Position numbers and translations under genes: made by a program | The notes under the pieces: generated by a model | What the model saw: the letters and a program-made list of their open reading frames with translations, nothing else | What the model was told of the DNA's origin: nothing | Database searches by the model: none | In this document: in pieces, positions 4,861 to 56,264 of the stretch | How the letters are laid out: each line of letters opens with the position of its first letter | How positions within the stretch are numbered: position 1 is the stretch's first letter | Assembly: GCA_900318245.1 (NCBI GenBank) | Contig: ONJT01000015.1 | Coordinates: 1 to 57,129, forward strand | Direction: 5' to 3' | DNA length: 57,129 nucleotides | DNA from: an uncultured Bacteroidales bacterium | GTDB taxonomy: Bacteria; Bacteroidota; Bacteroidia; Bacteroidales; Paludibacteraceae

Positions 4861-5028
4861 TATTCCAAGGTGACAATAGGGGCGTCGGTGGCGGATTCTT
4901 CGCGGGTGAGGTTGACGCGTTCGCGGAGTTCGGTCTGCTCGCGGCTGACACCCATGAGGATGCCGAAATAAATCGACGTGATAAGGACAGAAGTACCACC
5001 TCGCGATATGAGCGGCAAGGGTTGGCCG
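4861..5028 (-). pseudogene. Duplicated 3' end of ftsW
   Basis: 168 bp nearly identical to 6328-6495, the last 56 codons of ftsW, in the same orientation and frame (GQPLPLISRGGTSVL to the final IVTLE). I count four substitutions and all are synonymous (GAC/GAT, GAA/GAG, CTC/CTG, GGT/GGC); the stop is TAG here and TAA in ftsW. Homology ends abruptly at 5028, where the reading frame continues into an unrelated short sequence with no promoter. It is a fragment rather than a gene. It is separated from the parent ftsW by the DUF2851 gene and marks a past duplication or rearrangement at the end of the cluster. Confidence 0.9.
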
Positions 5029-5101: not shown

Positions 5102-6325
5102 TTAATCAAAGAGTGTAGGATTTTGCTTGAAGATTTTGTAGCCAACTTCGCAGTTGATGCATTCGTGATGCTGGCAGTAGTTCTGGTACAGGTGCAAAAG
5201 GGCTTGGGTGTCGGCGGCAGAAGTGACTTGTTGCCCTAAGACCCGCCACTGGCGAATGATGGTGTTGTTCTCCGGTGCGATGCGGTCCATGAGCATCAAG
5301 GCATGTTCCGCCTGAACGGTGTCATTGCGATGGAGGGCATAGGCATATTTATACGGCAACACCGTGTTAATCAGTAATATATCAATGCTGCTCTTTCCCA
5401 TGTGCTCCACGTCGAAAAGCGCAACGAGAGCCTTTAGATCATCCGTGTCGAGAATCTTACTGAGTAGCGCCTCCGACTGATAGAGCAGTTGCGCGAATTG
5501 GCGGATGCGCAGTTCGGGACTGTTCTGCGGACGCAGACGGGCATTCTTCCAAACACTGGCATCGAGCGGCGTGAGGCCGAACTTGGTGCGCAAGAAATCG
5601 TACTCCTTCGCCATCGCTTCGTCATCGGCGATCAGTCCAGCCTGCCCCATCAGCAAGGCCGTGAGTTGGAAGAGGTTATTGCGATGTTTCTGCAGGTATG
5701 CGAGCGGGGTATTGATAGCGAGTTCTTCGAAAGGCACACTGTTTGTGTGAAAACCGAAGTTACGCGCGAGCGAGATATACAGCGCGTGTTCCCAACTGCC
5801 TTTAGTGATGGTTAGCAATCGCTCTATGGACGCGCGTTTGCACTCGAAACGCTTGCGCAGGAGTGTTTTCTTCCATCCTTCCGTCAGCAAAGCCGGCTCG
5901 CGTAACAACTGCTCTGCGCACCCGATACGTGCCTGAGCACTGTCCATCTGTTGGGCTGTTTGGAAAAGTTCTGTCAGATAGTCTTTGTTGCTCGGGTATT
6001 GTAACTCGCATTGCGGGATCAATTCTCCGCGGGAGTTATAGACGGGTTTGTCGGCAGTGCGCACCACATGCAGGATGACAGTGTCATACGCTTTATCCAG
6101 ATGGTGCTTATGGCGCAGCCAGTCGGACGAGCAGACATGAATCTCTACATTACCTATCCATTCCCGTCCGTCGATACGGATTCGCGCATGACTGTAGTCC
6201 GGTCCCGCATCGCGGTTATGCTCGCCTACAGAGAGAATCTCTATCCGCCGGCCGTCTGTGGTCTGTTGTTCAAAACCAGCCCACAGGCAATGTTCCCATA
6301 TGTAGTGCAGTAAAATCTCGGGCAT
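5102..6325 (-). CDS. DUF2851 family protein
   Basis: The protein has 407 residues and matches the DUF2851 family typical of Bacteroidetes: MPEILLHYIWEHCLW at the N-terminus, then GEHNRDAGPDYSHARIRID and GNVEIHVCSSDW. The C-terminus has a Cys/His cluster (HHECINCEVGYK) that might bind metal. Biochemical function is unknown. The start at 6325 is one base after the ftsW stop (TAA-C-ATG), so it is translationally coupled to ftsW and read as the last gene of the division cluster. A longer upstream reading into ftsW is antisense shadow and was not used. Confidence 0.85.
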   Translation of the reverse strand: MPEILLHYIWEHCLWAGFEQQTTDGRRIEILSVGEHNRDAGPDYSHARIRIDGREWIGNVEIHVCSSDWLRHKHHLDKAYDTVILHVVRTADKPVYNSRGELIPQCELQYPSNKDYLTELFQTAQQMDSAQARIGCAEQLLREPALLTEGWKKTLLRKRFECKRASIERLLTITKGSWEHALYISLARNFGFHTNSVPFEELAINTPLAYLQKHRNNLFQLTALLMGQAGLIADDEAMAKEYDFLRTKFGLTPLDASVWKNARLRPQNSPELRIRQFAQLLYQSEALLSKILDTDDLKALVALFDVEHMGKSSIDILLINTVLPYKYAYALHRNDTVQAEHALMLMDRIAPENNTIIRQWRVLGQQVTSAADTQALLHLYQNYCQHHECINCEVGYKIFKQNPTLFD

Positions 6326-6326
6326 G

Positions 6327-7580
6327 TTATTCCAAGGTGACAATAGGGGCATCGGTGGCGGATTCTTCGCGGGTGAGGTTGACGCGCTCGCGGAGTTCGG
6401 TCTGCTCGCGGCTGACACCCATCAGGATGCCGAAATAAATCGACGTGATAAGGACAGAAGTGCCACCTCGCGATATGAGCGGCAAGGGTTGGCCGGTGAC
6501 CGGACCGAGACCTACGGCAACGAGCATAGAGATGAGCGCCTGGCAGGTGATCATCAGGGCTAAGCCCATGGTCATGAGCATCGCCGGCATGTCGGAGTAC
6601 CGACTGGAGATATTACAAGCCCGGAACAAGATCGCCAGATACAGGAAGATGACAAAGCCCGCACCGAGTACGCCCGACTCCTCGACGATGATGGCGAAGA
6701 TATAATCGGCGAAGGCGAGGGGGAGATAGTCGCGCTCCTTGCTGTTACCCGGGAGGACACCGAGCGGCGAGGCACCGCCACGGGCGATGGCGACGGAGGC
6801 GTAGACCTCCTGTATATTCTCGTCCGTCAAGACGTATTTGTCATTTGCTATTTGTGATTTGTCATTTGAAAGATTTAAGTGTCTATCAATACGGCTGACC
6901 CAGGTGGTGGCACGCTTGAAAGGGCCGTGCATAGGTCGGCCGGGACGGACGAAGCCGAACTCGACGATGGCATAGCCCAGGCATAGGGCGATAATAGCTA
7001 TACCTACTACCGAAAGCGTATATCGCCACGGGATACGGGCGAGAACCCAGAGGCAGAAGATGATCAGACCAATGAGGACCGCCGTAGAGAGGTTGGACGC
7101 CATGATAGGCAGCATGACGATGGCAGCGATGATAAGGGTGCGGTAGAAATACTTGGACTTATCGGCTTCGGAACGGATACGGGCGAGTTGGTCCGCCACG
7201 ACGATGATGAGACTCAGCTTGGCCAGTTCCGAAGGTTGGAAAGTGATGCCGGCGATACGTACCCAACGCGCGGCGCCATTGATAGTGACGACGAGGGGGT
7301 TACCGGGGATCATGGTCGAATAGACGAGGAGGGTACTGAGGCCGAGGAGGGCATAGCCACCGAAGCGGACCCAGTAAGAGGGTATATACTGGATGCCGAA
7401 GGCAGCGATGACACCGAGGACGATGAAGAACATCTGCTGGCCGATAGGGCCGAGGGCAGAGTGGTGGGAATAGACCAAGGTGCTGGAGGCGGAGAAGAGG
7501 GCGATGATCGCGACGGCAATCAGTAGCGCAAAAAGCCACCAGTAGGTTCGGTCAATATTTGCTAAGTTCGGCTTTTTCAT
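6327..7580 (-). CDS. ftsW: Septal SEDS peptidoglycan polymerase FtsW
   Basis: The product is 417 residues with about ten membrane helices. SEDS family signatures are present: NGAARWVRIAGITFQPSELAK near residue 103-123 and GLGPVTGQPLPLISRGGTS near residue 362. FtsW polymerises lipid II glycan chains at the division septum together with FtsI (encoded upstream). The gene overlaps murD by four bases. A loop near residues 237-251 (NLSNDKSQIANDKYVLT) is encoded by a 7-bp tandem array, an insertion not expected in the family. In related genomes murG normally follows; here a DUF2851 gene does. Confidence 0.95.
   Translation of the reverse strand: MKKPNLANIDRTYWWLFALLIAVAIIALFSASSTLVYSHHSALGPIGQQMFFIVLGVIAAFGIQYIPSYWVRFGGYALLGLSTLLVYSTMIPGNPLVVTINGAARWVRIAGITFQPSELAKLSLIIVVADQLARIRSEADKSKYFYRTLIIAAIVMLPIMASNLSTAVLIGLIIFCLWVLARIPWRYTLSVVGIAIIALCLGYAIVEFGFVRPGRPMHGPFKRATTWVSRIDRHLNLSNDKSQIANDKYVLTDENIQEVYASVAIARGGASPLGVLPGNSKERDYLPLAFADYIFAIIVEESGVLGAGFVIFLYLAILFRACNISSRYSDMPAMLMTMGLALMITCQALISMLVAVGLGPVTGQPLPLISRGGTSVLITSIYFGILMGVSREQTELRERVNLTREESATDAPIVTLE
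6836..6870. repeat. 7-bp tandem array inside ftsW
   Basis: Five consecutive units ATTTGTC, ATTTGCT, ATTTGTG, ATTTGTC, ATTTGAA on the plus strand. They encode a polar loop of FtsW (SNDKSQIANDK) without breaking the frame. Confidence 0.85.
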
Positions 7581-8862: not shown

Positions 8863-10146
8863 TTAACGTATTTTAAGGGTTAGGATAGTCAATGCGGCTA
8901 ATAAGAGGGTGACGATGCAGAAACGGAGGACGATCTTCTGCTCGTGGTGGAGGTTCTTATAGCCCTTGAAGAGGATGGTACAAGTGGGGTCGTTCTTGAG
9001 GACCTGCTCGACGGAGGTGCGGTAATGATCATGGAGCGGAGTGCGCTTCCAGATACGTACGTGTTGACCCCGTTTCTTGTAAAACTTATAGACCCGGGTC
9101 TGGAGGATGACGGAGACACTCTCCATCAAGAAGATACCGCAGAGGAGGGGCACGAGGAGTTCCTTATGGATGACCATGGCGCATACGCCGATGATGCCGC
9201 CGACGGTGAGGCTGCCGGTGTCACCAAGGAAGACCTGGGCGGGGAAGCCGTTGAACCAGAGGTAGCCGACGAGTGCGCCGACGAAAGAGGCCAGGAAGAC
9301 GACGAGTTCTTCGGAGCCGGGTATGTACATGACATCGAAATACTCGGCCCACACGACACTACCGGAGGTGTAGGCGAGGATGAGCAAGGCGATGGCGATG
9401 ATGGCGGAGTTGCCGGCACACATACCGTCCATGCCGTCGTTGAGGTTAGCGCCGTTGCTGACAGCGGCTACGACGAAGACGGTGAGGAGAACGAAGAAGA
9501 TCCAGCCGAAGCGGTATTTATTGTTCTCGCCGGTCCAGGAGAAGAGGTCGGCGTAGTTGAAGTTATGATGCTTGACGAAGGGGATGGTGGTCTGGGTGGA
9601 CTTGATCTCCGGGGTCTTCTCGACCACGACGACATTGTTCTCGATATGGGAGCTGACGACTTCGTTCATGCTGACGGCCGGACAGAAACGGAGGGTGAGT
9701 CCGACGATGAGTCCGAGGGTGACCTGGCCGGCGATCTTGACCCATCCGTTGAGTCCGTCTTTGTTCTTACGGAAGGTCTTGATATAGTCGTCGGCAAAGC
9801 CGAGAGCGCCCATGAGGAGGGTGGTGACGAGCATGAGGATCATGTATACGTTCGTCAGTTTGCCGAGCAGAAGGCAGGGCAGGAGGATGGCGGCGATGAC
9901 GATGAGTCCGCCCATGGTAGGCACACCTTTCTTCGCCACATTGAAGGGGTCGGTTTTCTCGTCGCGCTGGGTCTCGGAGATGTGGTGGCGCTTCATGAAG
10001 TTGATGAAGGAGTTGCCGAACCAGATGGAGGTGACGAGGGCGATGATGCCGGCGGTAATGGCGCGGAACGAAATATACGTCATAAGACGCGCTCCCGCCC
10101 AGTGGCCATACGTTGTGGTTAAATAATCGAGTAAATGATAAAGCAT
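8863..10146 (-). CDS. mraY: Phospho-MurNAc-pentapeptide translocase MraY
   Basis: An integral membrane enzyme of 427 residues that joins phospho-MurNAc-pentapeptide to undecaprenyl phosphate, making lipid I. Conserved motifs: KKGVPTMGG, the ADDY aspartates (FADDYIKTFRKN), NLNDGMDGMCAG, FLGDTGSL and the histidine stretch RTPLHDHY. The insert of about 60 residues between helices (near residues 160-215) is usual for Bacteroidetes MraY. Upstream lies one of the two multi-hairpin elements, whose A/T-rich flank has TAnnTTTG-like boxes facing this gene. Confidence 0.96.
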   Translation of the reverse strand: MLYHLLDYLTTTYGHWAGARLMTYISFRAITAGIIALVTSIWFGNSFINFMKRHHISETQRDEKTDPFNVAKKGVPTMGGLIVIAAILLPCLLLGKLTNVYMILMLVTTLLMGALGFADDYIKTFRKNKDGLNGWVKIAGQVTLGLIVGLTLRFCPAVSMNEVVSSHIENNVVVVEKTPEIKSTQTTIPFVKHHNFNYADLFSWTGENNKYRFGWIFFVLLTVFVVAAVSNGANLNDGMDGMCAGNSAIIAIALLILAYTSGSVVWAEYFDVMYIPGSEELVVFLASFVGALVGYLWFNGFPAQVFLGDTGSLTVGGIIGVCAMVIHKELLVPLLCGIFLMESVSVILQTRVYKFYKKRGQHVRIWKRTPLHDHYRTSVEQVLKNDPTCTILFKGYKNLHHEQKIVLRFCIVTLLLAALTILTLKIR

Positions 10147-10177
10147 TGTATTATATATTTTATATTAATCGAAAAAA

Positions 10178-10386
10178 GAAAAATAATAAAAATAAATCAA
10201 AAAATACCAAAAATAATTATTTATGTAAATAAACATAGATAAACTCTGCCGCTCCGTCATAGGCCCTGGCAGGCCTCCCGCATTCCGCGCCCCACCGCGC
10301 CCTTAAAAGTTAACTTTACGTGCCCGGCAGGGCATCGTACTGCACATCCGCAGGATGTATATGACAGAGCGTCAGCGATAAACATA
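10178..10386. repeat. Multi-hairpin intergenic element, copy A
   Basis: Fills the murE-mraY gap. A 75-bp A/T-rich left block (10178-10252) and a right block (10369-10386, GCGTCAGCGATAAACATA) are nearly identical to copy B at 14070-14278. Between them the sequence differs but the fold matches: closing stem P1 10250-10261 with 10360-10371 (11 of 12 pairs), P2 10261-10276, palindrome AAAGTTAACTTT 10306-10317, P3 10321-10334, P4 10344-10358 (6 bp, 3-nt loop). On the minus strand TATTTTTG (10215-10208) could act as a -7 box for mraY. No protein-coding content. It may be a structured RNA or a mobile palindromic element. Confidence 0.75.
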
Positions 10387-10417
10387 CATAAAATATTATT
10401 TATTATCGGCACTTAGT

Positions 10418-11896
10418 TTATATATACTTCTTTACTTGCTCGTGGTCGTCGAAGTGGGACTTGACGCCTTTGATGATCTGGTAGTCCTCGTGGCCTTTGC
10501 CGGCGATGAGGATGACGTCACCGGGTTGGGCGAGGGTGCAGGCGGTCTGGATGGCTGCGGCACGGTCTTCGATGACGAGGGTGGAGAGGAGTTCGTCGGG
10601 CGTGAGTCCGTCGGTCATGTCCTTAAGGATGGCTGCGGGTTCTTCGTCACGGGGGTTGTCGGAGGTGAGGATGAGTTGTTCGGAGCCGCGTTTGGCTATC
10701 TGCGCCATCATGGGCCGCTTTCCTTTATCTCTGTTTCCTCCACAGCCTACTACTGTGATGAGCTTCGCTGTCGGTTTCTTGATTTCCCTTATTGTTTGGA
10801 TGACGTTATCGACGGCATCGGGGGTGTGGGCATAATCGACGATGGCTGTCCAGCCCTTTTGGCTGCGGATGGTCTCGAAGCGTCCGTTGACAGGCGTGAG
10901 GGTGGATAAGACACGCAGGACGTCGAGTTCGTCAAAGCCGAGGTTGAGCGCGGCGCCGTATATACAGAGGAGGTTGGAGACGTTAAAGCGTCCAACGAGG
11001 GGCACGAAGACTTCTTTGCCGTTGAGGTTAAGGAGCATGCCGTCGAAGCCTTCCTCGAGAATCTGCGCGCGGTAGTCGGCCAGGGCGCGGGTGGAGTAGG
11101 TATGGACGGCGGCTTTGCAGTTCTGGGTCATGACGAGTCCGTTGCGGTCGTCTTTGTTGGTGACGGCGAAGGCCGTGGGTTTGAGTGAGTCGAAGAGTCG
11201 CTTCTTCGTATCGCGGTAGTTCTCGAAAGTCTTATGGTAGTCGATATGATCGCGCGTGAGGTTGGTGAAGAGTGCTCCGTCGAAGTCGAGTCCTGCTATG
11301 CGCTCCTGGGCGATGGCGTGCGAGGAGACCTCCATGAAGGCATGGGTGCAGCCCGCATCGACCATGCGGCGAAGGAGGCCGTTGAGTTCGATGGCGTCGG
11401 GCGTGGTATGGGTGGCGGGGACGGCTTCGGCCTCGATATAGTTGACGACCGTGGAGAGCAGTCCGGCCTTGTGACCGAGGGCACGCGTGAGCTTATAGAG
11501 AAGCGTGGCGATGGTGGTCTTGCCGTTGGTGCCGGTGACGCCGACGAGGGTGAGGGCTTTGGATGGTTCGCCGAACCATTTGGAAGCGAGGAGACCCAAG
11601 GCTTTATCGGTGTTATCCACCAGGATGTAGGTGGTAGGACGCTTCGCTTCAGGACGCGACAAGTCGCTACAGGGTTCAGGGAGATAGGCGCGGTCGCTTA
11701 ATACGACCGCAGCCGCGCCGTTGGCGACACAGGTGTCGATGAAGGTATGTCCATCAACTGCTGTGCCGACTTGGGCTACAAAGAGGTCGCCGGCGCCGAT
11801 ACGGCGGCTGTCGAAATGCAAGGACCGGATGTCTTTATTTACGTCACCGATGACTTCGATCGGATCAATGACTGAAAGTAATTCGCTTAAAAGCAT
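10418..11896 (-). CDS. murE: UDP-MurNAc-tripeptide ligase MurE (meso-DAP type)
   Basis: The product is 492 residues. It adds meso-diaminopimelate to UDP-MurNAc-L-Ala-D-Glu. The ATP loop GTNGKTT is at residues 122-128, TTPDA follows for substrate binding, and DNPRDEEP near residue 415 is the signature that selects meso-DAP rather than lysine. VDYAHTPDAV and GCGGNRDKGKRP are also family hallmarks. The gene is 39 bases after ftsI and is separated from mraY by the multi-hairpin element. Confidence 0.96.
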   Translation of the reverse strand: MLLSELLSVIDPIEVIGDVNKDIRSLHFDSRRIGAGDLFVAQVGTAVDGHTFIDTCVANGAAAVVLSDRAYLPEPCSDLSRPEAKRPTTYILVDNTDKALGLLASKWFGEPSKALTLVGVTGTNGKTTIATLLYKLTRALGHKAGLLSTVVNYIEAEAVPATHTTPDAIELNGLLRRMVDAGCTHAFMEVSSHAIAQERIAGLDFDGALFTNLTRDHIDYHKTFENYRDTKKRLFDSLKPTAFAVTNKDDRNGLVMTQNCKAAVHTYSTRALADYRAQILEEGFDGMLLNLNGKEVFVPLVGRFNVSNLLCIYGAALNLGFDELDVLRVLSTLTPVNGRFETIRSQKGWTAIVDYAHTPDAVDNVIQTIREIKKPTAKLITVVGCGGNRDKGKRPMMAQIAKRGSEQLILTSDNPRDEEPAAILKDMTDGLTPDELLSTLVIEDRAAAIQTACTLAQPGDVILIAGKGHEDYQIIKGVKSHFDDHEQVKKYI

Positions 11897-11935
11897 ATCG
11901 TTGGGGTTGTTTTAAAAATAAAACAAAAATGCACA

Positions 11936-13732
11936 TTATCTTTTTTCTAGTTTGCGTTCGCCGTTTTTATAGACGTAGCAGCCGGTGTATGCCATGGTTT
12001 TCTCGGCGATGAGGCGGACGGCGGTGCCGCAGTCCATGCCTGCGTCATAGGGGAACTGCGGATCCTCAATCATGCAGATACAGGTGTATTGCGGGTTGTC
12101 TTCGGGGAAATAGCCGACGAAGGTCATGCGGTGGTGTTTGCCTGAGTAGCCGTGCCCGGGGATGAAAAGCTGCGCCGTGCCCGTCTTGCCGGCAATAGAC
12201 ACCCATCGTGACTGGGCCTTGCGGCTCCACGGCTTGGCGGCCGCTGTGCCTAAATGGTCATCCCAGACGACATCATGGAGCGCACCCTGTATGCCCCGCA
12301 GCGTACGGGACGAGCAGATAGACGACTTGACCACTTCCGGGCGGAACGTACGGACATTCTCACCGTTCTGGCGGATAGCCGTGACGAGCATGGGACGCAT
12401 CATCCGTCCGTCGTTGGCGATGGCGTTATAGAACATGAGGATCTGCATGGGACTGAGTTCGACGGAGTAGCCATACGACATCTTACTGAGGGTGACGGTG
12501 TCACGGGGTATGTCGATACGCACCTTGTCGGCGCCGGGTATCTCGCAGTAGACGCTGTCCATGAGTCCCATGCGCTCGATACGCCGCACGAACTTCTTCG
12601 CGGAGCCTTCGTAGGAGCGCGTGATGAGTTTGGCGAGGGCGATATTCGAGGACACGGCGAGGGCCGAGCGGACGGTGAGGAGGGTGTCCATAGGGTGGGC
12701 GTCGGTATGCTTGACCGAGAAATACTGCCAGGGCTGGCGGCTGATAGAGACGGTGTCGTCAATACCTATCTTATCGTCATCAAGCGCCGCGACGAGTGCG
12801 ATGGTCTTGAAGGTGGAGCCGGGTTCGACACGCTGGACGGCATGGTTCTGCGCCTCGAAATAGTCTTCGGACTGCGGGTCGCGGTCGAGGTTGGCGATGG
12901 CGCGTATATAGCCGGTCTTGGTCTCCATGAGGATGGCGCAGCCCCACTTAGCGTGGCGCTCGACGGTCTTGGCCATGAGGACGTTCTCGACGATATCCTG
13001 AAGGTTGGCGTCAATCGTGGTGACGACGTCGAGTCCGTCTTGGGCTTCGATCTCGGTGACGGACTCGTTACGTCCGCCGATACGCTGGATAGAGCTCATG
13101 CCGTCGATGCCCCGGAGTTCTTTGTCGAAGCGCTTCTCGAGGCCGGAGTTACCGCCACCTCCGTCGCCGTAGATACCGCCGATAGTGCGGCTGGCGAGGA
13201 TGCCGAAGGGTTTGATACGGCGGTACTGGTCTTCGAAGAAGACGCCGGATTTATATTTGCCTTTCTTGAGCAGCGGGTTGCGCTCGAGTTCGCGGCGCTG
13301 GAGGTAGTTGATACGATGGTCGCAGACACGGAGGCGTTTGTTGGAACGGAGGTACGCCCGCGTGATGCGCGCTTTGTACTCCGCCTGCGTGTGCTCGGGT
13401 ACGATGATAGACAGATCGCGCGCGAGGGTGTCGATATAAGTGGTGAAGAGATGGCCGTTGTTGTCGTGGAGAGCAGGTACGCTCGCGTCCATGTACATGT
13501 AGTACTGGGGCATGCTGGAAGCGAGGAACTGGCCGTTGCAGTCGAGGATGTTACCGCGCGTGGCCTGGATGGGTTTGCGCGTCGGCACTTGTTTCTCCGC
13601 TACTTTGAGCCACTCGTCGCGCTCTACGGTCTGGACGTAGATGATCTTGCCCATGACGGCGAGGAAGCCGCATAGGATGACTGCGAAGATAATCGCAAAG
13701 CGCCAGACCGTATTTCGTTGCTCATCAATCAT
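11936..13732 (-). CDS. ftsI: Septal transpeptidase FtsI (PBP3 type)
   Basis: The protein has 598 residues with one N-terminal membrane helix (about residues 11-33), a dimerisation domain and a penicillin-binding transpeptidase domain. Active-site motifs are STFK (306-309, nucleophile Ser306), SSN (361-363) and KTG (516-518). It cross-links septal peptidoglycan with FtsW. The chain ends about 80 residues after KTG, so the C-terminal PASTA domain seen in many Bacteroidetes homologues is absent. The start overlaps the ftsL-like gene by eight bases. Confidence 0.94.
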   Translation of the reverse strand: MIDEQRNTVWRFAIIFAVILCGFLAVMGKIIYVQTVERDEWLKVAEKQVPTRKPIQATRGNILDCNGQFLASSMPQYYMYMDASVPALHDNNGHLFTTYIDTLARDLSIIVPEHTQAEYKARITRAYLRSNKRLRVCDHRINYLQRRELERNPLLKKGKYKSGVFFEDQYRRIKPFGILASRTIGGIYGDGGGGNSGLEKRFDKELRGIDGMSSIQRIGGRNESVTEIEAQDGLDVVTTIDANLQDIVENVLMAKTVERHAKWGCAILMETKTGYIRAIANLDRDPQSEDYFEAQNHAVQRVEPGSTFKTIALVAALDDDKIGIDDTVSISRQPWQYFSVKHTDAHPMDTLLTVRSALAVSSNIALAKLITRSYEGSAKKFVRRIERMGLMDSVYCEIPGADKVRIDIPRDTVTLSKMSYGYSVELSPMQILMFYNAIANDGRMMRPMLVTAIRQNGENVRTFRPEVVKSSICSSRTLRGIQGALHDVVWDDHLGTAAAKPWSRKAQSRWVSIAGKTGTAQLFIPGHGYSGKHHRMTFVGYFPEDNPQYTCICMIEDPQFPYDAGMDCGTAVRLIAEKTMAYTGCYVYKNGERKLEKR

Positions 13733-14045
13733 GGGTTATCTTTGTGGGTGGGATGCGGTTTTCCTGGAGGGTGCTGCCTTGTTCGCGGAGGGCTGCGGCG
13801 ACCTGGGATTGGCGGGTGGTGTTGGTGAGTTGGGCACTGATGGTCATATAGCGGAACTTGGCATCGAGCATCTCTTTCTTGGTGTCGGTGAGTCGGTGCT
13901 GCTGGCGGGCGGCCTGGTAGCCCATGAAGATATAGACGAAGACCAGCACGACGATGAGGGCGATGAGCGGGTATTGCTCACGGATGGCTTTGCTTCGCAA
14001 AACATCACCATTTAACCAAGATTGTATGTCATGTGTCGCTGCCAT
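13725..14045 (-). CDS. ftsL: FtsL-like division protein
   Basis: A 106-residue bitopic protein: about 25 cytoplasmic residues, a membrane helix (LIALIVVLVFVYIFMGYQ) and a short periplasmic coiled-coil (RLTDTKKEMLDAKFRYMTIS). Its size, topology and position between rsmH and ftsI identify it as the FtsL-like protein of the Bacteroidetes cluster, which scaffolds FtsW and FtsI; sequence similarity to classical FtsL is slight. It overlaps ftsI by eight bases and is preceded by copy B of the multi-hairpin element. Confidence 0.82.
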   Translation of the reverse strand: MAATHDIQSWLNGDVLRSKAIREQYPLIALIVVLVFVYIFMGYQAARQQHRLTDTKKEMLDAKFRYMTISAQLTNTTRQSQVAAALREQGSTLQENRIPPTKITHD

Positions 14046-14069
14046 TGGTTAATATATATAATCAAAAAC

Positions 14070-14278
14070 AAAAATAATAAAAATAAATCCAAAAATACCA
14101 AAAATAATTATTTATGTAAATAAACCTAAATAAACTCTGCCGCACAGGCGTTAACGCTTAGCAGCGTCCTGCGCTGCACCCCCAACGACTCCCCGTACAA
14201 ATAAATTTGACGGTAGCCCTTGTGGCTACACCGCACCTCCATAGGAGGTAAACACCTGTTGCGTCAGCGATAAACATA
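14070..14278. repeat. Multi-hairpin intergenic element, copy B
   Basis: Fills the rsmH-ftsL gap. Flanks match copy A (left block 14070-14143, right block 14261-14278). The 123-nt interior folds as in copy A despite different sequence: P1 14141-14155 with 14248-14263, P2 14161-14177 (6 bp), palindrome CAAATAAATTTG 14198-14209, P3 14213-14229 (6 bp), P4 14235-14249 (6 bp, 3-nt loop). Counted from the P1 start, P3 lies at 71/72 nt and P4 at 94/94 nt in the two copies. In P4 the third pair is A-T in copy A and C-G in copy B, a compensatory change. Confidence 0.75.
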
Positions 14279-14288
14279 AATAAATAAT

Positions 14289-15188
14289 TTATAGTTCCTT
14301 TTTCTCTGCGATGCGGAGTTTGGCGCTGCGGGCGCGGGGGTTGAGGGCGACTTCTTCAGGGCTGGCTTCGCGGCCTTTCTCGATGAGGGTGAAAGGCGTG
14401 AGGATATTACCGTAGAAATCTTTCTCGATGGTGCCCTCGAGGTTTCCGCTACGGAGGAAGTTCTTCACGAGTCGGTCTTCGAGGGAGTGGTAGGTGAGGA
14501 TGGCGATACGTCCACCCGGGGCGAGCAGGTCACGTGCGGCGACGAGCATGTCACGGAGAGCGCCGAGTTCATCGTTGACCTCGATACGCAGGGCCTGGAA
14601 GAGTCGCGCGAGTTCTTTGGAGCGCTCGGCGGGTATACGCGAGGCGGCGACGAGGTCTTCGGTGCGGAGAATCGCTTTCTGAGAGCGCGCCCGGCAGAGG
14701 TTTTTCGCGATGGCGCGACCGCTGTTGAGTTCGCCGTAGAGGTAGAAGATGCGCGCGAGGTCTTCTTCGGAATAGGTGTTGACGATGTCGGCGGCGGTGC
14801 GCTTGGCGGTCTGGTTCATCCGCATGTCGAGTGGTGCCGGAAAACGGAAGCTGAAGCCGCGTTCGGGACAGTCGAAATGGTGGAAGCTGACGCCGAGGTC
14901 GGCGAGGAGTCCGTCGATGGCGGTGACGCCGTAGTAGTCGAGCCAGTTGCGGAGGTATCGGAAGTTACTATGCACGAAGGTCCACCGCGGGTCGTCGATG
15001 GCGTTGGTGAGCGCATCGGCATCCTGGTCGAGGGAATATAGGTGCCCTAGGTGTCCTAGGTTTCCCAGGATAGCACGCGAATGTCCACCACCACCAAAGG
15101 TGACGTCCACATAAACGCCCTCGGGTTTGATATTCAAACCTTCGATCGTTTCCTTTAACATTGCCGGGATGTGGTAGACGGTGGACAT
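14289..15188 (-). CDS. rsmH: 16S rRNA (cytosine1402-N4)-methyltransferase RsmH
   Basis: The product is 299 residues (also known as MraW). It methylates N4 of C1402 in the ribosomal P site using SAM. Motifs: HIPAML at the N-terminus, VDVTFGGGGHSRAIL near residues 27-41 (SAM loop), DQDADAL, DGLLADLGVS and the C-terminal TYHSLEDRLVKNF. A loop near residue 45 (LGNLGHLGHLYSL) is coded by a 9-bp tandem array (15042-15068), slightly longer than usual. It follows mraZ by 24 bases, a gap filled by TTTAATG repeats. Confidence 0.95.
   Translation of the reverse strand: MSTVYHIPAMLKETIEGLNIKPEGVYVDVTFGGGGHSRAILGNLGHLGHLYSLDQDADALTNAIDDPRWTFVHSNFRYLRNWLDYYGVTAIDGLLADLGVSFHHFDCPERGFSFRFPAPLDMRMNQTAKRTAADIVNTYSEEDLARIFYLYGELNSGRAIAKNLCRARSQKAILRTEDLVAASRIPAERSKELARLFQALRIEVNDELGALRDMLVAARDLLAPGGRIAILTYHSLEDRLVKNFLRSGNLEGTIEKDFYGNILTPFTLIEKGREASPEEVALNPRARSAKLRIAEKKEL
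15042..15068. repeat. 9-bp tandem array inside rsmH
   Basis: Three units on the plus strand: GTGCCCTAG, GTGTCCTAG, GTTTCCCAG. They share a CCTAGG core with arrays at 29705-29734 and 51541-51612 and encode the LGNLGHLGH loop. Confidence 0.75.
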
Positions 15189-18545: not shown

Positions 18546-18605
18546 AGTAGGAATTTACTGCGTGTAAGCCGGGGTGCTCGGAAGCACTCAGCCGTTAAGC
18601 GGCTG

Positions 18606-18613
18606 CAAAGGTA
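18606..18613 (-). promoter_or_regulatory. Promoter -7 box, SufT-lpxH-mazG
   Basis: TACCTTTG then CAGCCG on the minus strand, 61 bases before the SufT-like start. It directly follows the htpG terminator. Confidence 0.65.
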
Positions 18614-18616
18614 CAA

Positions 18617-18645
18617 CAAAAAAATGACATACACAAGGGTGTATG
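18617..18645 (-). terminator. Rho-independent terminator of htpG
   Basis: On the minus strand CATACAC/GTGTATG (18645-18639 with 18634-18628) form a hairpin with a 4-base loop, followed by a run of T (A run on plus, 18618-18624). It lies 28 bases past the htpG stop. Confidence 0.8.
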
Positions 18646-18672
18646 CCACTTTTCTGCTTTTTTTATTGCTTT

Positions 18673-34922: not shown

Positions 34923-37900
34923 ATGAGTAAATTTTTACAACGAATTTTTGTCTGCACAGCCCTGATGGCGCTGCCGTTCATGGCTTATGCGGACGATTTT
35001 CAGGTGTCCAACTCGAATTTCGAGGATTGGAGTGGCGCCGCTTTTGACGGTGAGATTCAGCCCAAAGGCTGGAACGCATGTAACGTGGAGCAGGTGGGCT
35101 TCAAATTCAACTTTGCCCACAGAGAGACCGGTCATAACGGCGGCTATTGTATGATGGTGCAAGACCAAGACGTAGGTGCGATGGGTATCACGGAGACCAG
35201 TCCGGGTTATTTCTCGCTGGGTAAGCCTTGGGCATATGTGGCCAGTATTACCGCCATTAACCAGGCTACGGCCGGTACTTCGGGTGGTATCACATGGACT
35301 CACCGTCCGGACTCCATGGCTGTATGGATCAAGCGTACAGGTAGCAACACCGACAAAGAGGATTTCTACCTCTTGTACTACTCTTGGAGCGGAACAGCTA
35401 AAGGAACGAAGTACAAAGGCAAGAACGGAAGTTGTACCACGACCGGCGGTTACACCGATGAGGAATCGGATGTGCGCCAGGCGCTGAACGGTAATGAGTG
35501 TGGTACGAACACGATGGCGAAGCAGATCGCCGAAGGTATGTGGCGCGAGAAGAAGACCTACGGCAACTGGACCCGAATGGTTGTTCCTATCTACTACATG
35601 AACAACGATGTGCCGCAGAAGATGAATCTTATCTTCTCGGCGTCCAACTACCCGAACTTCCGCGCCAATAGCGGCTTGTATAAAGGTAACTCGCTTTACG
35701 TCGATGACGTGGAAATGATTTATTCGTCGAAGATCCAGAAGCTGCTGGTAGATGGCAAAGAGTGGAAAGGTTTTGACCCGAATAGCACGGAGGTGCAGAC
35801 ATACTCTTTAGGTGAGTCGGCTACTTCGATTCCTACTATCGAGGCTGTCCGCGGTGCGGGTTCGATCACCAACGCCAGAGGAACGACCGTCGCTTTCGCG
35901 GGACGTACGCTTTCCGGCAGTGAGATTTCTATCACGTATGGAAACCTGACCGGCACGCCGACCGTCATCACCGTCAAGTCGGAGGATGGCAAGTCGACGA
36001 CGACCTATAAGATCCAGTTCCAGAAAGCCGCTTCGAGCAACGCGAAGTTGGCGGGTATCACGATCAACGGTGCAGCCCTGGAGAGTTTCAGTCCGACCAA
36101 ATACAACTACGAAGTAGAGTTGCCTTACGGCACGAAGTCCGCTCCGGTAGTTGAGGTGGAGAAACAGGAAGAGCAGCAGACGGTTGCTATCACCCAGCCG
36201 ACGTCTGCAACGGGCACCGCGACCATTAAGGTCACGGCGGCTAACAAGACCGCCACGCAGACCTATACGCTGAATTTCAAGGTCGGCCTGCTGTCGGATA
36301 ACGAGTTGCAGGACATCCTTGTCAACGGCAAGTCTATCCCGGGCTACACGCCTTCGCAGACTGTCTATAAAGTGTCGCTGCCGGTATCGACCACTACGAT
36401 GCCGACCGTTACGACGGTTTCCAAACCCGAGTACGGAAATGACCAGACGGTAGTACATACGAAACCGACGGTTATCGACGGCGGTGTGTACATGCTGAGT
36501 GTCACCACGCCGGGCAATAAGATCGCGAAGGTCTATAAGCTGAACTTCAAACTCGAGAAGTCGTCCTATTCCTACCTCAAGGACCTGAAGGTGGAAGGCG
36601 GATATATTGCAGAATTCCGTCCGGATAACTTCACGTATTATATCAACCTGCCGATGGGTACGACTTCGCTGCCGAAGATCACCTATACCCTTGGCGACGA
36701 GTATCAGACGGTTAGCGTGAGCGAACTCGGCGCAGGTGTAGTAGATGGTACGGTGCGCGTGACAGTTACCGCAGGTAATGGTGACCAGTCCGTATATAAA
36801 CTGGTCTTCTCTACCGAGAAATCCGATCTCTCCACGCTGGCTGGTATTACAATTGGCGGTGTGGCGCTGCCGGGCTTCGCGCCGGATGTGACGAGTTATA
36901 CGTATCAGCTGCCGGTCGGCACGACGGAGTTGCCGGCTATTGTGCCCATCTTAGGCGATCAGTACCAGACCTATTCGATCACCACAGCCGGTCTGAACGG
37001 TAAGACCCGTATCACTGTAACTGCCGGTGACGGTAGCACGACGATTTATATGATCGCTTTCTCCGTGGAGGTCTTCAACGAGAATACGCTGGACAGCCTC
37101 TCGGTAGCCGGTTTTGAGATCAACTTCGATCCGGAAGTCAACGAGTACTGGGTGAACTTACCGCAGGGAACAACGGTTCTGCCGGCAGTAAGTTATACCC
37201 TCAAGGATCCGACTTTCCAGACCGCGTCTGTCCGTCCTATCAGTGGCTTGACCGGTGATTATAAGATTACGGTTCGTCCGCAGAGTGGTGCAAGCCGCAC
37301 GTATATCATTCACTTCTCGGTAGCTACTTCGAGTAACGTGAACTTGAATAATATTTATGTGGACGGCGTAGCTCTGACGGGCTTCCAACCGGATACGACG
37401 GCCTACGTGATCACGCTGCCGGAAGGTGTGAGCACTATTCCGACGGTTACTTTCGAAAGGGCCGAGACGAGTCAGCGTGTGCTGAGCGTGCTCGAGGGCA
37501 AGGTACACACTATCACAGTGACGGCTCAGAGTGGCGCTATACGCACCTATACGGTCACCTTCGTCGTCGTGGCATCGGCTAATGCGTCTCTTGATATGAT
37601 CTATCTAAACGGTGATTCGCTCAAGGGCTTTGATCCCAAGGTACTGAACTACACCGTCAAACTGAACGGCGAGACTTGTCCGGAGATCACAGTAACGAAA
37701 GCGCCGGGTCAGCAAGTGACCATCACCGCTCCTTATGGTGCCGGTACGGCATATATCGCCGTGAAACCGGAGACAGGCGCTGTAAATACGTACACGATCG
37801 CGTTTGAACCGGTACCGGTGGCAAGTGCCCAATTGGACGGCATCGCCATCAATGGTGTGGCTATCCCGGACTTCAAGTCCGATTCGATGGACTACACGGC

Positions 37901-40900
37901 TACGTATAGTAAAGAGCTGCCGACCATTACCTACACCAAGCGCCACGTATCGCAGGAGGTAGAAGTGTTGTGGAAAGATTCGGTGGCTTGGATACATGTG
38001 GAAGACACGCTGGGCAACAAAGCCGCATACAGTGTCGCCTTCAGCCGCACGCTGTTGACCGTCAACACGCTCGACGCGATCTATGCGGACGGTGTGCTGA
38101 TTGAGGGCTTCGACTCTAACACAAAGGAGTATACCTATGACTTGCAGCCGGGTAGCAGTTATCCGGAACTCTCGTACAAAGTGACTGACTATGCTACCGT
38201 AGTATTCTTCGGCCAGTTGATAGAAGGTAAATGGGGTATTAAGGTCGCTGCCGAGGACGGAACGACCACACTGTACACTGTGGCATACACGATTCTTCCG
38301 TACACCGATGTGACGCTCAAGGATCTGAAGGTGGCCGGTTATGACTTTGCGTATGACAAGACGCAGAATACGTATGGCCCGTTCACGATCGCCGAAGGTG
38401 TGGAACTGCCGGTAGTGACGGCTGTGCCGGAGGATGGTCAGTCCGTTCTGACATACAACGAGAATGACTCGACGCAGAAAGTGCTCGTGATGGCGGAAAA
38501 CGGCGCGAAGAATGAATATACTATTGAGTATAGACGCGTGCTGAGCGATCACGTTCAATTAGCGAATATCGTTATTGCCGGCTATCCGGACTTCACCTTC
38601 AACCCTGCCGTGCATAAGTACTCTGTGACTTTGCCGAGAGACGCTAAAGTTGTGCCGAACGTCAATGCCGTTCCGCAACTGGAGAACCAGACCGTGACGA
38701 CCTATTTCTGCCGTCCGGACGGTGTGGTACGAATTCTCGTTCAAGCCCAGGACGGCTCCACCGGAGAATATACCATTGCTTTCCCGGTAGAGAAATCCGA
38801 CGTTACGCTCCTTAAGAGCCTGACCATCAACGGTGAAGCGAAGGACGTTAACGTGACGGAGTACACGTTTAACGTACCATTCGGAACCGTAGAACCGTAC
38901 ATGGTGAGCTACGAGCAACACGAGGGACAGTTGGTTCACCTCATCGAGGCACCGCTTACCGGTACGACGAAGATCATCGTCACCAACGAGAAGGGCGACA
39001 ACAGCCGCACCTATTCGATTAATTATATTGTCGGCAAACCGGAAGGAGTCAATAAAGTGAAGAGCGTGAAGTACAGTTACGTCACCGCATCCGATGCAAC
39101 GGTTACCGGCACTATTGAACCGGTCAAAGGCGATAACATCATCAAACTGCCGTTTGGCACGAAGGAGTTCAAGGTTGATCTTAGCGACGTGGAGAAGAAT
39201 TACGAGGCACAGACCATTCAACTCTACGACGGTGGTATTCGTCGCGGCGTTACCATCATCGCGGTTGCTAACCGTGAGGGCGAAGATGATGTTATATACA
39301 CCTTGACTCCGGAGATGCCGGAATTTGAGGAGACTGGCAAACTGGAGCACCTGGTATATAAAGGAGCAGAGGTGCCGCGTTTCCGTCCCAACGTATATAA
39401 CTACATGATTAACGTCACGGCTCAGCCGACAGAAGCAGACTTCGCCGGTACGGTTGCCTACGGCGGCAAGACGGTTACCTTCAGTGCATTCGATGCCAAG
39501 AAGAAACAAGTAACCATCTCCGTTGACGGCGGCGAGACTTACAACGTTTGCTGGTTCTACAACGCTGACGAGTGGCCGTTCACTCACACACGTGTACAAA
39601 CAGAAAAGGCTTATTGGTACGAAGTTAGTACATTAGGCGGCATCTTTGGTTCACAGGCAAAGCGAAAAGACATTGTAGATCCTACCGGTTACAAGCCCAA
39701 AGGATGGAAAGTTCCGGCAGACTTGTTGGCTTATATCGATTATGATGCTACTGTTTCGCATTTTACCTATTATACAGGTCATGAGGTGACAGTCATCGGA
39801 GAAAAAGAAATAACGCTTTCCACCCTCCGTGGAGGCGCTCTTAACAGTTCGATGCCGGGTACACTGACTTTGGGCGGTTTGAGTTTCCCGGACGGCATTA
39901 AGTTAAATGGAAATACGAAAGTCTCGTTTGAAAAGAATTTGACGAACGCCGTGCAATACCGTAATACACCGGAACAGTTCCAATTCGAATATCAGCCGAT
40001 TATGACTGTCAATGGTATCAATAATTGGAATGCCTGGGTGTCTCTCGGTACGGCCTCCGGAACGTCATTGGTGAGCGCAGATATATCGGGCACGTATGCC
40101 AACTTAGGTAAATGGCAGACGAAGACTACGAACCTGTCCTATAACGGAACGGTAGGCAAACTCAATATCATGCTTTGCGCAAGTGAAGTAAGCGGAAGCA
40201 GTTATAATATCTATGCAGGTCCCGCGGCGAAGAGCGCGGACCTCCAGATCCGCAACATGCGCATGGTCTATAACTCCGAGTTGACTGGTGTTAAAGTGAA
40301 CGGAACGGATGCTACGAAAGACGGAATGAATTTCATCATTACGGTGGATGACAACTACATAGGTATGCCGTCGCTGAAATTCACCGGCAAGGTACAAGAC
40401 CAGACGCAGAGCATTACTCTGGAAAATAACGGGGAATGGATAGACGGAAAACTCACGGCGAAAGTAGTGAACTACGGCGAGAACGCCAACGAGGCGTTGT
40501 GCGATAGTACGATCTATTATGTCATTCTCCAAAGAACGCCGGTGACCTCTGTCGAGCACACAGCCGCATTCGGAAGCTACCCTACCACCGTCAAGGGCGA
40601 CACCACCTTCATCAATATGCCTTACGGCACGAAGGTCCTGCCGGATCTCAAAATCACGCCGGAGAGCGTTCACCAGTTGATAACGATGACCAAGAAAGGT
40701 AATGCTGTTACTGTGAACGTGAAGGCTGAGGATGGCGCAGAGAAGACCACCGTATATGTCTTCCGCGAGATTAAAGGCACGGATGCAACGCCGGAGACAT
40801 GGAACCTCGAGAGTGGAGTTCTCAACACGGTAGACGCAGAGAATCATATCTATACCGTAGAGGCAGAGAAGATGCCGGAGGTGGAGATCTCCAAGAAAGA

Positions 40901-43900
40901 CGGTCAGTTGCTGGATATCAATTATACGGTCAACGGAGCTGTCTTCACCATTACTTCCGCAGACGGTAAGTCGCAGACTACATACACTATCAATCGCCTG
41001 AACCCGTCTGTGACGACGACAGGTCAAATAGAGACCTTCATGAAGGACGGAACGCCTTGGGCTGTTTTGGGCGGTGATACGTATGACGCGACCTTGGCTA
41101 GACCGACCGAACTGATCACGTTCGAGCGTAAGAACGACCCGGATTCAGTGGTTTATATCCAGGCTCCGGATAGAATGGAGTGGCAGGTATACGGTTCTGC
41201 TAACCATACCTACCTGCTGACCTATCCTTCCGCTGCTTCGACGAATGCGAACTTGGCGAATATCCTCATTGACGGTGTACCGTATAATGAGTTTGCGGCC
41301 TCGGAAACGGAGTATGAGATTGAACTCGACTCGATCTTCTTCATGGATGCGGTAGCTGCTGAAATGACGCAAAAGATAGTGACAACGCAAACCACCGAAG
41401 CAGGTACAGTAGTCGTTTATAATACGACCGTTACGGCAGAGGATGGCACGACCACCAAGCAGTACCGCGTAACGGTTCATCGTTCGAAGAGTTCGAATGC
41501 TACCTTGGAAGGTATTCTGCTTGATGGAAAGCCGATTGATGGTTTCGATCCTACAGTACCGAACTACACCGTAACATTACCGCTACCGGCTGACGGCGTC
41601 AAACGCGAGCAACCGATTGTTCCGGCTATCACCTATATTGCCGGTCAGAAAGGACAGGTAGTGACGGTTACCGACGGTGTGCTCAATATGAGCGCAACAG
41701 AACTGTTGGTTACCAGTGAAGACGGATCGAACAATACCTACACCGTGCTCGTGAATGCAGAGCCGAGTCATTGTGCGGACTTGACCGGCATTACGGTGAA
41801 CGGCGAGATTGTAGATCAGTTCGAGCCGGGGCGTCACTACTATTCGCAGTCTATCAAAACCAGCAAAATCACGATCGACTACATGGCGGATGACCGCTTC
41901 CAAGAAGTGACGATGAAGGTAGACACGATTCGCGCGGATCATCAACTGAAGTACACGCTCACCGTAAAGGCCGAAGATGGTGTGAAAGTAGCGAACTACG
42001 AGGTAATGATTTATATCGAGAACCAATCGAATGACGCGCAGTTGGCCAATATCTTGCTGAACGGTAAAGAGTTGGATGACTTCGAGCGGCTACTCAACCC
42101 GGATATCGTCTTTGACGGTGGTAATAACAACTATGAGATTACCCTACCGGCCGGCACAACGGTACTGCCGGAGGTGAGTGCAAAACTCAAAATGGACGGT
42201 CAGACGGTAGATATTATCCAGAAGGCGGATTCGGTCCTGCTGAATGTCTTTGCTGTGGACGGTACGCCGAACACCTATACCTTGAAGTTCACCGTGCCGC
42301 TTTCGACGAATGCCAACTTGAGCATGATATTCCTCAACGGAGACTCGCTCAAGGGCTTCGATCCGTCCTATTACTTCTATCAGGTGGACCTGCCTGTGGG
42401 CGCGCACGTGTTACCGAGTGTAGCGGCGCAGAAATCGGAGGCAGTACAGACGATACTGCCGATAGTGGTTGATAGCGCAAAGATGCAAGCCACTATTAAG
42501 ATTCAGGCGGAAGATCCGACGACGCGTGAGAATACCTATGTGGTGGTCTTCCGCTTCACGCAATCGGATGCCGACTCGCTCGCGATGATTTATCAAGACG
42601 GTAAGAACCTCGCGGGCTATGTACCGACGACTATGTATTATACGCTGTCCTTGCCGGTTGGTACGGCTGCCTTCCCCGACCTGAGCTGGGAGACTGTGGA
42701 CGAATGGCAGATCGTGAAGATGGACACCGTAGAGTCTACGGCCGACCAACTCATCCGTCAGATTACCGTGACCTCGGAGAGCGGTAAGAAGAACACCTAT
42801 ACCGTTTCGTACACGATTCTCAAATCGGATATCGACACGCTCCAAATGATTTTCGTAGACCAGAAGGCGTTGGAGAACTTCAATGCCAGCACGCTGGAGT
42901 ACTACTACCAGTTGTCGGCTTCCTATGCCGCAGAACTCGGAGGTAAAGTGCCGACGGTAGAAGTCATCACGGGCGATGAGTATCAAACGGTTCTCATATC
43001 GCAAGTACGCGATTCGATTGCAGGCAAGTCGCTGGAGTACAAGTCTATCGTGACGGTGACGGCAGCAAACGGTACCACACGTACATACACCATCCACTAC
43101 CCGGTAGAAAAGTCGAGTGAGGCGACGCTGAATATGATTAACCTCGCCGGCAAGCCGCTGGCTGGCTACGATGCAGAGCGCTTTAGCTACAAGGTAGAGA
43201 TTGGATTAGAGGCTGCCGTTCCGGCTGTTACGGTCATCAAAAAAGAAGAGATTCAAGTGGTAGAGATCAGCCTTGTGGATGACGTCATCACCATCATAGT
43301 GACGGCAGAGGATGGCACGCAGCAGACATACACCCTCACCTTTGTGCGTGTGATGTCGGATATAGCCACCCTCCGCGACCTCATCTTGACCGAAGAGCAA
43401 GGAGAGGCCTTGACCTATCCGTTCCGTCCGGAGGTATTTAATTATACGATTAATATCCCGTATTCGGCCGATAAGACCTTAGAGGAGCAACTGCCGGCTA
43501 TAGAGCCTGTTTTCTACGATGAAATGCAAACGATGGACACTGTACACCATCTTTTGGAGAACGGTGACATCCTCATAGAGATTACTGTTACGGCGCCGAA
43601 TGGTGAAGACCAAAAGATCTATTCACTGACTTTCCACTTCATCAAACCTTCGGATGCGATGCTTGTCAACATCCTTATCAAGGGTACAGAGTTGCTGAAC
43701 TTCCTGCCGCAAGTGACGGAGTACACTTATGCCCATCCGTACGGTTCGACCACGGCAGACTATTTCACTGCCGCTGATGTGCAGGCCATGCTGAGTGACC
43801 GCTTGGCTACCTTCACAATTACGGAGAGCACCGATGGTACGATTTATATCCGCGTGGTAGCACAAGACGGTACGACGGAGAATACCTATGCTATTATGCA

Positions 43901-44537: not shown

Positions 44538-44560
44538 GGGCAATCCTGTTCAATTATCAA

Positions 44561-44597
44561 AAAAATGACATGCGCGCTTGCGTATGTCATTTTTTTG
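44561..44597 (+). terminator. Terminator of the giant surface protein gene
   Basis: ATGACATGCGC (44565-44575) pairs with GCGTATGTCAT (44580-44590), 11 pairs with one wobble, followed by T7. A's upstream make it potentially bidirectional. Confidence 0.9.
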
Positions 44598-44600
44598 TAG

Positions 44601-44608
44601 TACCTTTG
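44601..44608 (+). promoter_or_regulatory. Promoter -7 box, glycolipid operon
   Basis: TACCTTTG followed by CAGCGC, starting four bases after the preceding terminator; the ATG is 20 bases downstream. Confidence 0.7.
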
Positions 44609-44627
44609 CAGCGCAAATCTATCGCTT

Positions 44628-55734: not shown

Positions 55735-56082
55735 AATTACTTTACTTCTTTGCCTGTGACAGTGTAGGTCTTGTCGCCTCTCAGGATAAGCAGGTTGCCG
55801 TCGCGGAGTATCTTCGTGGCCGGTGTGTCGTCGCGGACGGGATCGATGGCCATAGTGGGATCGAGCTTAAAGGAGCACGTGACGGTGGCATTGGCATTCA
55901 CGAGCAGCGAACCGTCCTCATTGCAGCCGCTCCAGGCTTCGAAGAGGTAGCCCTCATCCGGCGTAGCGATAAAATGGAGCAATGTGCCGTCAACAACTTT
56001 CGTGAGATCGATACCTGTCTCCTGTATAGTTATCACGCCGTTGGCGGGTTGCTGCACGGTCACTTCCCATAACGGGATAATC

Positions 56083-56201: not shown

Positions 56202-56264
56202 TTCCATGTGAAGGCGTCACACGCTGTCTGGTCGAACTCATAATAGACAGGCGGCAGGGTGATG

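Follow-up and report, generated by a model that had tools for sequence, protein, structure and literature searches.

The stretch of DNA analysed here (the window: 57,129 nucleotides (nt), contig ONJT01000015.1, from an uncultured Bacteroidales bacterium of the Paludibacteraceae) contains genes of the division and cell wall (dcw) cluster, which lie on the minus strand and are interrupted by two long gaps, one between murE and mraY and the other between rsmH and ftsL. An earlier note on this DNA had described the two gaps as having nearly identical flanks and unlike interiors, and this is indeed the case: the left flanks share 96% identity across 74 nt, 23 of 24 nt are the same in the right flanks, and the interiors align poorly to each other. 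Both gaps hold members (copy 1 and copy 2) of a mobile-looking DNA repeat family that is scattered over the genomes of one genus of rumen and gut bacteria and is tightly linked to a gene for a nuclease of the GxxExxY family. Each element is ~155 nt long and consists of a body of ~130 nt between AT-rich boxes that run in the same direction.

The distribution of the family was examined in several ways. A BLAST search with copy 1 across 61 genomes gave matches within the genus, with partial, AT-rich ones outside it, and a pattern made of the two ends matched 8 of 61 genomes of the genus, with none for the reversed control. A covariance model (R1) was then built from 33 aligned copies, both window copies being left out; this model recovers the window copies (60.2 and 58.1 bits) and has matches in 104 of 178 genomes of the genus, which answers the search of related genomes that the earlier note had proposed as a check. 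At most 18 candidates were scored per genome, so that the copy numbers, which reach 18 of 18 scored candidates and amount to 17 for the genome that contains the window, are lower bounds. Outside the genus, R1 matched none of 342 sampled genomes (the two positives among the 344 genomes of the order scan both belong to the genus), under filters stricter than those of the genus scan and with at most nine candidates scored per genome, which diverged forms may escape. A scan of named genomes yielded 100 stretches; the 80 listed loci are nearly all titled Paludibacteraceae or Bacteroidales bacterium, and their samples, where named, are mostly ruminant rumen or gut. Two records with elements are titled Clostridia and Bacteroidaceae (L283 and L272) and are perhaps mislabelled or contaminated contigs of metagenome-assembled genomes. 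The pattern scan gave no match in viral contigs and thus no sign of viral spread. In Rfam, window positions 10000-14500 gave three matches, all under the gathering score, including one over copy 2 (18.6 bits, cut-off 80), and 15 family loci gave a single match of 23.4 bits (cut-off 270). No repeat described in the literature searched, mostly papers open without subscription, was recognised as this family.

Comparison of the copies resolves the body into four arms: a closing stem of ~14 bp (P1), a hairpin (P2), a long arm with interruptions (P3) and a further hairpin (P4). The earlier note had correctly observed that the two interiors fold alike, but its arm layout has to be revised, as the "12-nt palindrome" and the "second hairpin" that it listed as separate helices are mostly portions of P3. 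Its observation that stems are kept by compensatory pairs despite sequence change extends to the whole family: in 132 matches (125 distinct), the covariation score is 0.583, compared with 0.165 for shuffled and at most 0.145 for slid partners, 84.0% of the cells are paired, and 49 of 50 pairs have changed on both sides. The 61 matches beside GxxExxY genes score 0.639, against 0.183 (shuffled) and at most 0.127 (slid). Fitting these alignments to the model favours the structure, although P1 is anchored by the fixed ends; a direct reading of P1 from the ends of 54 copies (out of 69 full-length rows and 116 matches in total) gave 678 Watson-Crick cells of 756, with 13 A.C and 4 G.T.

Folding energies no better than those of shuffled sequence were named in the earlier note, together with missing homologues or stems that do not covary, as outcomes that would speak against a functional fold; homologues exist, their stems covary, and the energies differ clearly from shuffled sequence. 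When the whole elements were folded as single-stranded DNA (ssDNA), the minus strands of copies 1 and 2 gave -39.7 kcal/mol (z -5.95) and -40.0 kcal/mol (z -7.07), with 0 of 200 shuffles as good in each case, and both adopt the same four-armed shape; the plus strands gave -25.7 kcal/mol (z -2.31, 2 of 200 shuffles as good) and -25.5 kcal/mol (z -3.41, 0 of 200). RNA folding gave z-scores of -3.01 and -4.06 for the plus strand and -1.96 and -3.55 for the minus strand (copies 1 and 2, respectively), a preference for plus; the stretches folded in this case were without the right part of each element.

The mismatches in the helices carry further information on the folded strand, since an A.C pair read on the plus strand is a G.T pair on the minus strand. 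In 97 non-redundant copies (97 of the 132 rows) read on the plus strand, P1 comprises 1,246 Watson-Crick, 27 A.C, 4 G.T and 67 other cells (1,344 in all) and P3 has 158 A.C against 60 G.T; in 39 further copies (39 of 61 rows), the A.C:G.T ratios are 11:2 for P1 and 73:13 for P3. These two helices therefore point to a folded minus strand, whereas P2 and P4 do not. With DNA energies, the minus strand is the more stable in all of the 137 copies that were left after removal of near-identical and incomplete rows (median difference 8.5 kcal/mol); part of this stability is due to composition, since shuffled copies give 116 of 137 (median 1.6 kcal/mol). RNA parameters favour the minus strand in 133 of 137. 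The loops of P2 and P4 are mostly triloops (107/125 and 113/125), which on the minus strand have the form GNA in 74 of 107 and 85 of 113 cases; the P2 loops of the window copies have four bases, GCCA and GCTA (GNNA form). DNA mini-hairpins that have a GNA or GNNA loop and two or more G-C pairs are extraordinarily stable (PMC4686876, in part). The conclusion, drawn with moderate to good confidence, is that the fold is one of ssDNA and is formed by the minus strand.

The ends of the elements are of two types. Type I ends read G[A/T]AAATAAACATAgATAAAC on the left and ATAAACATAAATAAA on the right (consensus of 115 copies), and type II ends, GAAAAATA..AAAAATA and AAAAATACCAAAAATA, surround similar bodies. 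The AT-rich left flank shared by the window copies lies outside the type I repeat and holds type II box pairs with ~5 nt between them (Table 1); judging from sequence, it is probably the emptied site of an element of the second type. Upstream of ribB, a full type II element is present in one species (G116) and joined boxes alone in the window species, and the 22 other relatives shown have neither element nor boxes (the script missed 6 of the 30 loci). The simplest history would be that the element was inserted along with its boxes and that the body between them was later lost. The TAnnTTTG-like boxes attributed to each copy in the earlier note are present as words on the minus strand, but they lie in this AT-rich flank. 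A promoter explanation is not favoured; on the minus strand the end consensus reads TATCTATG/TATTTATG, not TAnnTTTG.

Table 1. Elements and box pairs in the two dcw gaps (window coordinates)
Feature	Position	Strand	Evidence or remark
murE-mraY gap, site of copy 1	10147..10417	.	271 nt
Type II site to the left of copy 1, probably emptied	10178..10218	+	sequence; similar box pairs around bodies in L003, L044, L208, L228, L289
Type II box pairs, copy 1 left: GAAAAATAATAAAAATA and AAAAATACCAAAAATAATT	10178..10194 and 10200..10218	+	~5 nt separating the pairs
Copy 1 left end, type I boxes, GTAAATAAACATAGATAAAC	10225..10244	+	fits left-end consensus (115 copies)
Copy 1 body, folding into four arms (P1-P4)	10246..10375	- (presumed folded strand)	cmsearch 58.1 bits, E 1.8e-8
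Copy 1 right end, type I boxes, GATAAACATACATAAA	10377..10392	+	right-end consensus (115 copies)
Type II site to the left of copy 2, probably emptied	14069..14109	+	sequence; 96% identity with copy 1 across 74 nt
Type II boxes, copy 2 left (first base C, not G, in the first)	14069..14085 and 14091..14109	+	
Copy 2 left end, type I boxes, GTAAATAAACCTAAATAAAC	14116..14135	+	consensus of 115 copies
Copy 2 body, same four-armed fold as copy 1	14137..14267	- (presumed folded strand)	cmsearch 60.2 bits, E 7.5e-9
Copy 2 right end, type I boxes, GATAAACATAAATAAA	14269..14284	+	consensus of 115 copies

The element in the murE-mraY gap is a lineage-specific insertion. This gap measures 1-61 nt in 25 of 27 measurable relatives, against 271 nt in the window; the exceptions are one relative with 141 nt and one with 833 nt and an apparent extra gene, and two further loci, which are incomplete, stand outside the 27. 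R1 found an element at none of 29 orthologous mraY loci, some of which belong to element-free genomes. Across the family, 98 of 99 copies do not overlap a long open reading frame (ORF), and the flanking genes, called with a simple longest-ORF script as were those of the GxxExxY loci below, show no consistent direction relative to the element (++ 32, -- 27, -+ 18 and +- 14; n=91). Elements less than 250 nt apart are arranged tail to tail in 16 of 16 pairs (inverted doublets), and neighbours farther apart are in mixed orientation.

These observations bear on the two possibilities that the earlier note had left side by side, a functional structured RNA and a palindromic mobile element acting as a single strand. 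If the family were a structured cis-regulatory or non-coding RNA (an attenuator, small RNA or terminator) kept for a host function, its strong covariation and its sites in operon gaps, here before ftsL and mraY, would be explained; strong covariation alone, however, does not prove a functional RNA. The inconsistent orientation to flanking genes, the lack of an element at the 29 orthologous mraY loci, the tail-to-tail pairing, the rarity of wobble pairs in P1 (4 G.T in 1,344 cells on the plus strand, or 27 if the minus strand is read), the triloops and Rfam matches that are all sub-threshold weaken the RNA reading, which appears very improbable. The mobile alternative is supported by the dispersed copies, the covariation, the lineage-specific insertion, the absence of a set gene orientation and the minus-strand DNA fold.

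A candidate enzyme emerged from long left-right end pairs, most of which proved to be two separate elements per locus; 2 of the 5 shown revealed an ORF of ~146 amino acids (aa) between the elements. Its product is a clear member of the GxxExxY family (TIGR04256, 103.6 bits, cut-off 35; PF13366 (PDDEXK_3), 104.6 bits, cut-off 22). The fullest unit thus comprises an element in + orientation, a GxxExxY PD-(D/E)XK gene of ~146 codons and an element in - orientation, with 0.75-1.4 kb between the model ends in the 16 units measured. The subfamily concerned (GxxExxY-I) was delimited by at least 66% identity to the query, the next relatives having at most 58%. It is found in 30 genomes, of which two contain just partial copies; these are 30 of the 104 element-positive and 0 of the 74 element-negative genomes (Fisher p 1.5e-8, without phylogeny correction). 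An element lies within 400 nt of the gene at all of 30 loci (28 full-length members, one partial and one 58% relative): upstream in 26, where it is in + orientation in 25 and 14-39 nt from the gene start in 22, downstream in 22, and on both sides in 18. The order + element, gene, - element is common, not universal. GxxExxY-I is under strong purifying selection, with a median ratio of nonsynonymous to synonymous substitutions (dN/dS) of 0.066 in 18 pairs, and D83, E93 and K95 are unchanged in 7 of 7 members; these residues correspond, in sequence, to the catalytic D...ExK motif of PD-(D/E)XK nucleases. A second GxxExxY subfamily of the genus has folds of the same architecture with other boxes on at least one side in 6 of 7 loci inspected by eye (L401, L402 and L404-L407; L408 is not clear), so that each nuclease subfamily seems, from these few loci, to have its own type of box. 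A PADLOC search with two proteins gave a weak PD-DExK match for one (E 0.0088), and a PDB sequence search gave one chance-level match (E 0.85). In the portions of the literature covered, again mostly outside subscription papers, GxxExxY receives passing mention at most, with no function, and PDDEXK_3 none.

The favoured explanation, to which a probability of roughly 60% is given, is that the window copies are solo ends of a GxxExxY-associated mobile element, moved by a nuclease that reads the folded strand or the boxes. The minus strand, when single, for example at a replication fork, would fold into a four-way junction of P1, P2, the long imperfect P3 and P4; this folded strand, the boxes or both would be recognised by the nuclease, which would cut close to the base of P1 and so spread the whole unit as well as, acting in trans, pairs without a gene and solo copies. 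By analogy with the repetitive extragenic palindromic (REP) doublets that form hairpins (REPINs) and their REP-associated tyrosine transposases (RAYTs), units with the gene between two elements would then be autonomous, tail-to-tail pairs would be derivatives of them that lack the gene, and solo copies would be their scattered ends. The shape would be under selection because it is the substrate; the sequence would be free, so the arms could drift by compensatory change while box type follows the nuclease subfamily. This suggests an undescribed kind of jumping element, and the new finding is that a covarying family of DNA folds is linked to an orphan nuclease family. If GxxExxY proteins mobilise or process such folds, a common orphan nuclease gains a job, a non-HUH enzyme joins the systems that act on ssDNA folds, and the copies are a natural collection of sequences in which DNA shape has been under selection.

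Several observations weigh against this explanation. As to the folded strand, there is no excess of A.C over G.T in P2 (4:3) or P4 (20:23) in the 97 copies, nor in the 39 further copies (1:5 and 8:13); the share of GNA is lower among the triloops of these further copies (P2 13/23, P4 11/27), and the P4 triloops of the window copies are TGC and TAT, not GNA. As to the nuclease, the window's own genome (92% complete) contains a 34% relative but no GxxExxY-I, and 74 of the 104 element-positive genomes, which are drafts, are without GxxExxY-I. One side has no element within 400 nt at 12 of 30 loci, and the nearest downstream copy is in - orientation at 14 of 22 and in + orientation at 8, with a further - copy beyond in 6 of these 8. 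The association counts take no account of phylogeny, no target-site duplication was seen by eye in the element-gene units, and RAYT-like Y1 proteins are also enriched with the elements (90 of 104 element-positive against 41 of 74 element-negative genomes).

Another possibility is that the copies are remnants, similar to miniature inverted-repeat transposable elements (MITEs), of an element of the classical DDE or tyrosine-recombinase kind with an enzyme that was missed, GxxExxY being its regulator or cargo. Inverted ends at the extremities of many units, the numerous element-positive genomes without GxxExxY-I and the absence of a target duplication pattern pointing to GxxExxY are compatible with such an origin. 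However, the same gene, under strong purifying selection, adjoins elements at every locus examined for this, its start lies 14-39 nt from the upstream copy at 22 of 26 loci, and classical enzymes read end sequence, whereas the arms vary freely. As regards a MITE of a known insertion sequence (IS), the inverted ends of the copies are shared with the GxxExxY unit, in which no known transposase lies. A MITE-like origin is considered unlikely.

Alternatively, the elements could be REP-like and moved by a RAYT (TnpAREP, an HUH Y1 transposase), with GxxExxY a mere passenger, which is rather improbable. RAYT-like proteins occur in 131 of 178 genomes of the genus, the tail-to-tail pairs resemble those of REPINs, and TnpAREP subclass 2.6 of Bacteroidetes is reported to have on its flanks "atypical secondary structures" that also occur at other places in the genome (PMC6006769, in part); in addition, one locus (L217) has an element and a RAYT-like gene ~87 nt apart. 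Yet elements are present within ~1.5 kb at 1 of 30 RAYT-like loci (E < 1e-3), as against 30 of 30 GxxExxY loci, a second RAYT-like locus has a chance-level match only (E 0.56), and elements are found at 0 of 20 Y1 loci, both sets of loci including genomes without elements. Furthermore, 14 element-positive genomes have no RAYT match, among them two rich ones (18 and 15 matches) that both have GxxExxY-I. Y1_Tnp/RAYT was downgraded as a partner because of the single locus in 30 and because several flanks among the RAYT-like genes shown carry other, small repeated hairpins. The RAYT-like family is itself expanded, with up to 11 matches per genome, and small repeated palindromes occur in several of its flanks (L311-L340).

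The family can be compared with several known systems. It resembles the "REPtrons" formed by REP/REPIN sequences and RAYTs (PMC3116915, PMC6006769; both in part) in its dispersed intergenic palindromes, inverted pairs (here 16 of 16) and single-strand fold, in a fuller form that flanks the enzyme gene, and in having several enzyme types, each with its own repeat type. It differs, as far as those sources go, in that the enzyme is a PD-(D/E)XK and not an HUH protein, the fold is a ~155-nt four-way junction and not a hairpin of 21-65 nt, and the arms vary in sequence and are accompanied by AT boxes instead of a GTAG-like foot. Of the features by which a REP/REPIN is recognised, then, inverted doublets are present, a short palindrome (about 20-65 nt) with a GTAG-like foot is absent, and a cognate Y1 HUH gene flanked by the repeat is not in evidence (elements at 1 of 30 RAYT-like and 0 of 20 Y1 loci), L217 being an exception. 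Elements of the IS200/IS605 type likewise have folded single-strand ends beside one gene; here, large ends surround the gene, mostly in inverted orientation, and the ORF between them encodes GxxExxY instead of a Y1 transposase. Integron attC sites, in which the structure is conserved although the sequence is not and one strand serves as the substrate, are similar in these respects; the direct-repeat boxes outside the stem are a difference, and neither integron core sites (judged by their consensus) nor a cassette array was recognised here. The bcr1 repeat of the Bacillus cereus group is likewise structured and limited to one lineage, and it is not known to have a linked nuclease. It is a dispersed repeat of ~150 nt (PMC2267715, in part), similar in size to the present family, which is far more divergent in sequence, with covariation.

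GxxExxY genes are widespread beyond the genus, being found in 107 of 198 sampled Bacteroidales genomes with up to 12 matches in one. The 200-nt flanks of 30 such loci, the best-scoring from the 107 positive genomes, fold with z < -3 in 14 of 28 cases upstream and 14 of 29 downstream; the controls gave 1 of 60 for windows farther away within these loci and 0 of 20 for regions upstream of ribB. In a first run without controls, the corresponding numbers were 11 of 28 and 13 of 29, with 5 of 14 and 4 of 14 for other GxxExxY genes of the genus and just 15 of 28 and 8 of 28 for the GxxExxY-I flanks themselves. Among eight loci shown, which were chosen for strong folds (L425-L428, L439, L446, L448 and L450), most carry recurring words of the type ATCTGTG/CTCTGTG in their flanks, in several cases as long imperfect palindromes on either side of the gene. 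These results suggest that structured flanks are a general GxxExxY trait. More tentatively, and at somewhat less than even odds, the GxxExxY class may comprise the nucleases of undescribed, widespread transposable elements with single-strand ends recognised by shape and not by sequence, of which the four-way junctions of the Paludibacteraceae would be one lineage and the ATCTGTG/CTCTGTG palindromes a form found elsewhere in Bacteroidales.

Two copies in other genomes share parts with those of the window. One (L011, G004:C65) is mosaic-like, its long arm resembling copy 1 and its closing-stem side copy 2, and the other (L010, G036:C22) resembles the long arm of copy 1; these similarities hint at a possible exchange of modules between elements. 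The window also contains other repeats: a 168-nt direct repeat with 98% identity (4861-5028 and 6328-6495) near an ORF at 5102-6418; a 132-nt direct repeat with 96% identity (56075-56206 and 56257-56388) near the contig end; an open frame of 3,204 aa (34923-44537) with ~41-nt repeats inside; and two promoter-like blocks (GCTGCAAAGGTAC...; 18602-18656 and 44558-44612), which form an inverted pair and are 85% complementary.

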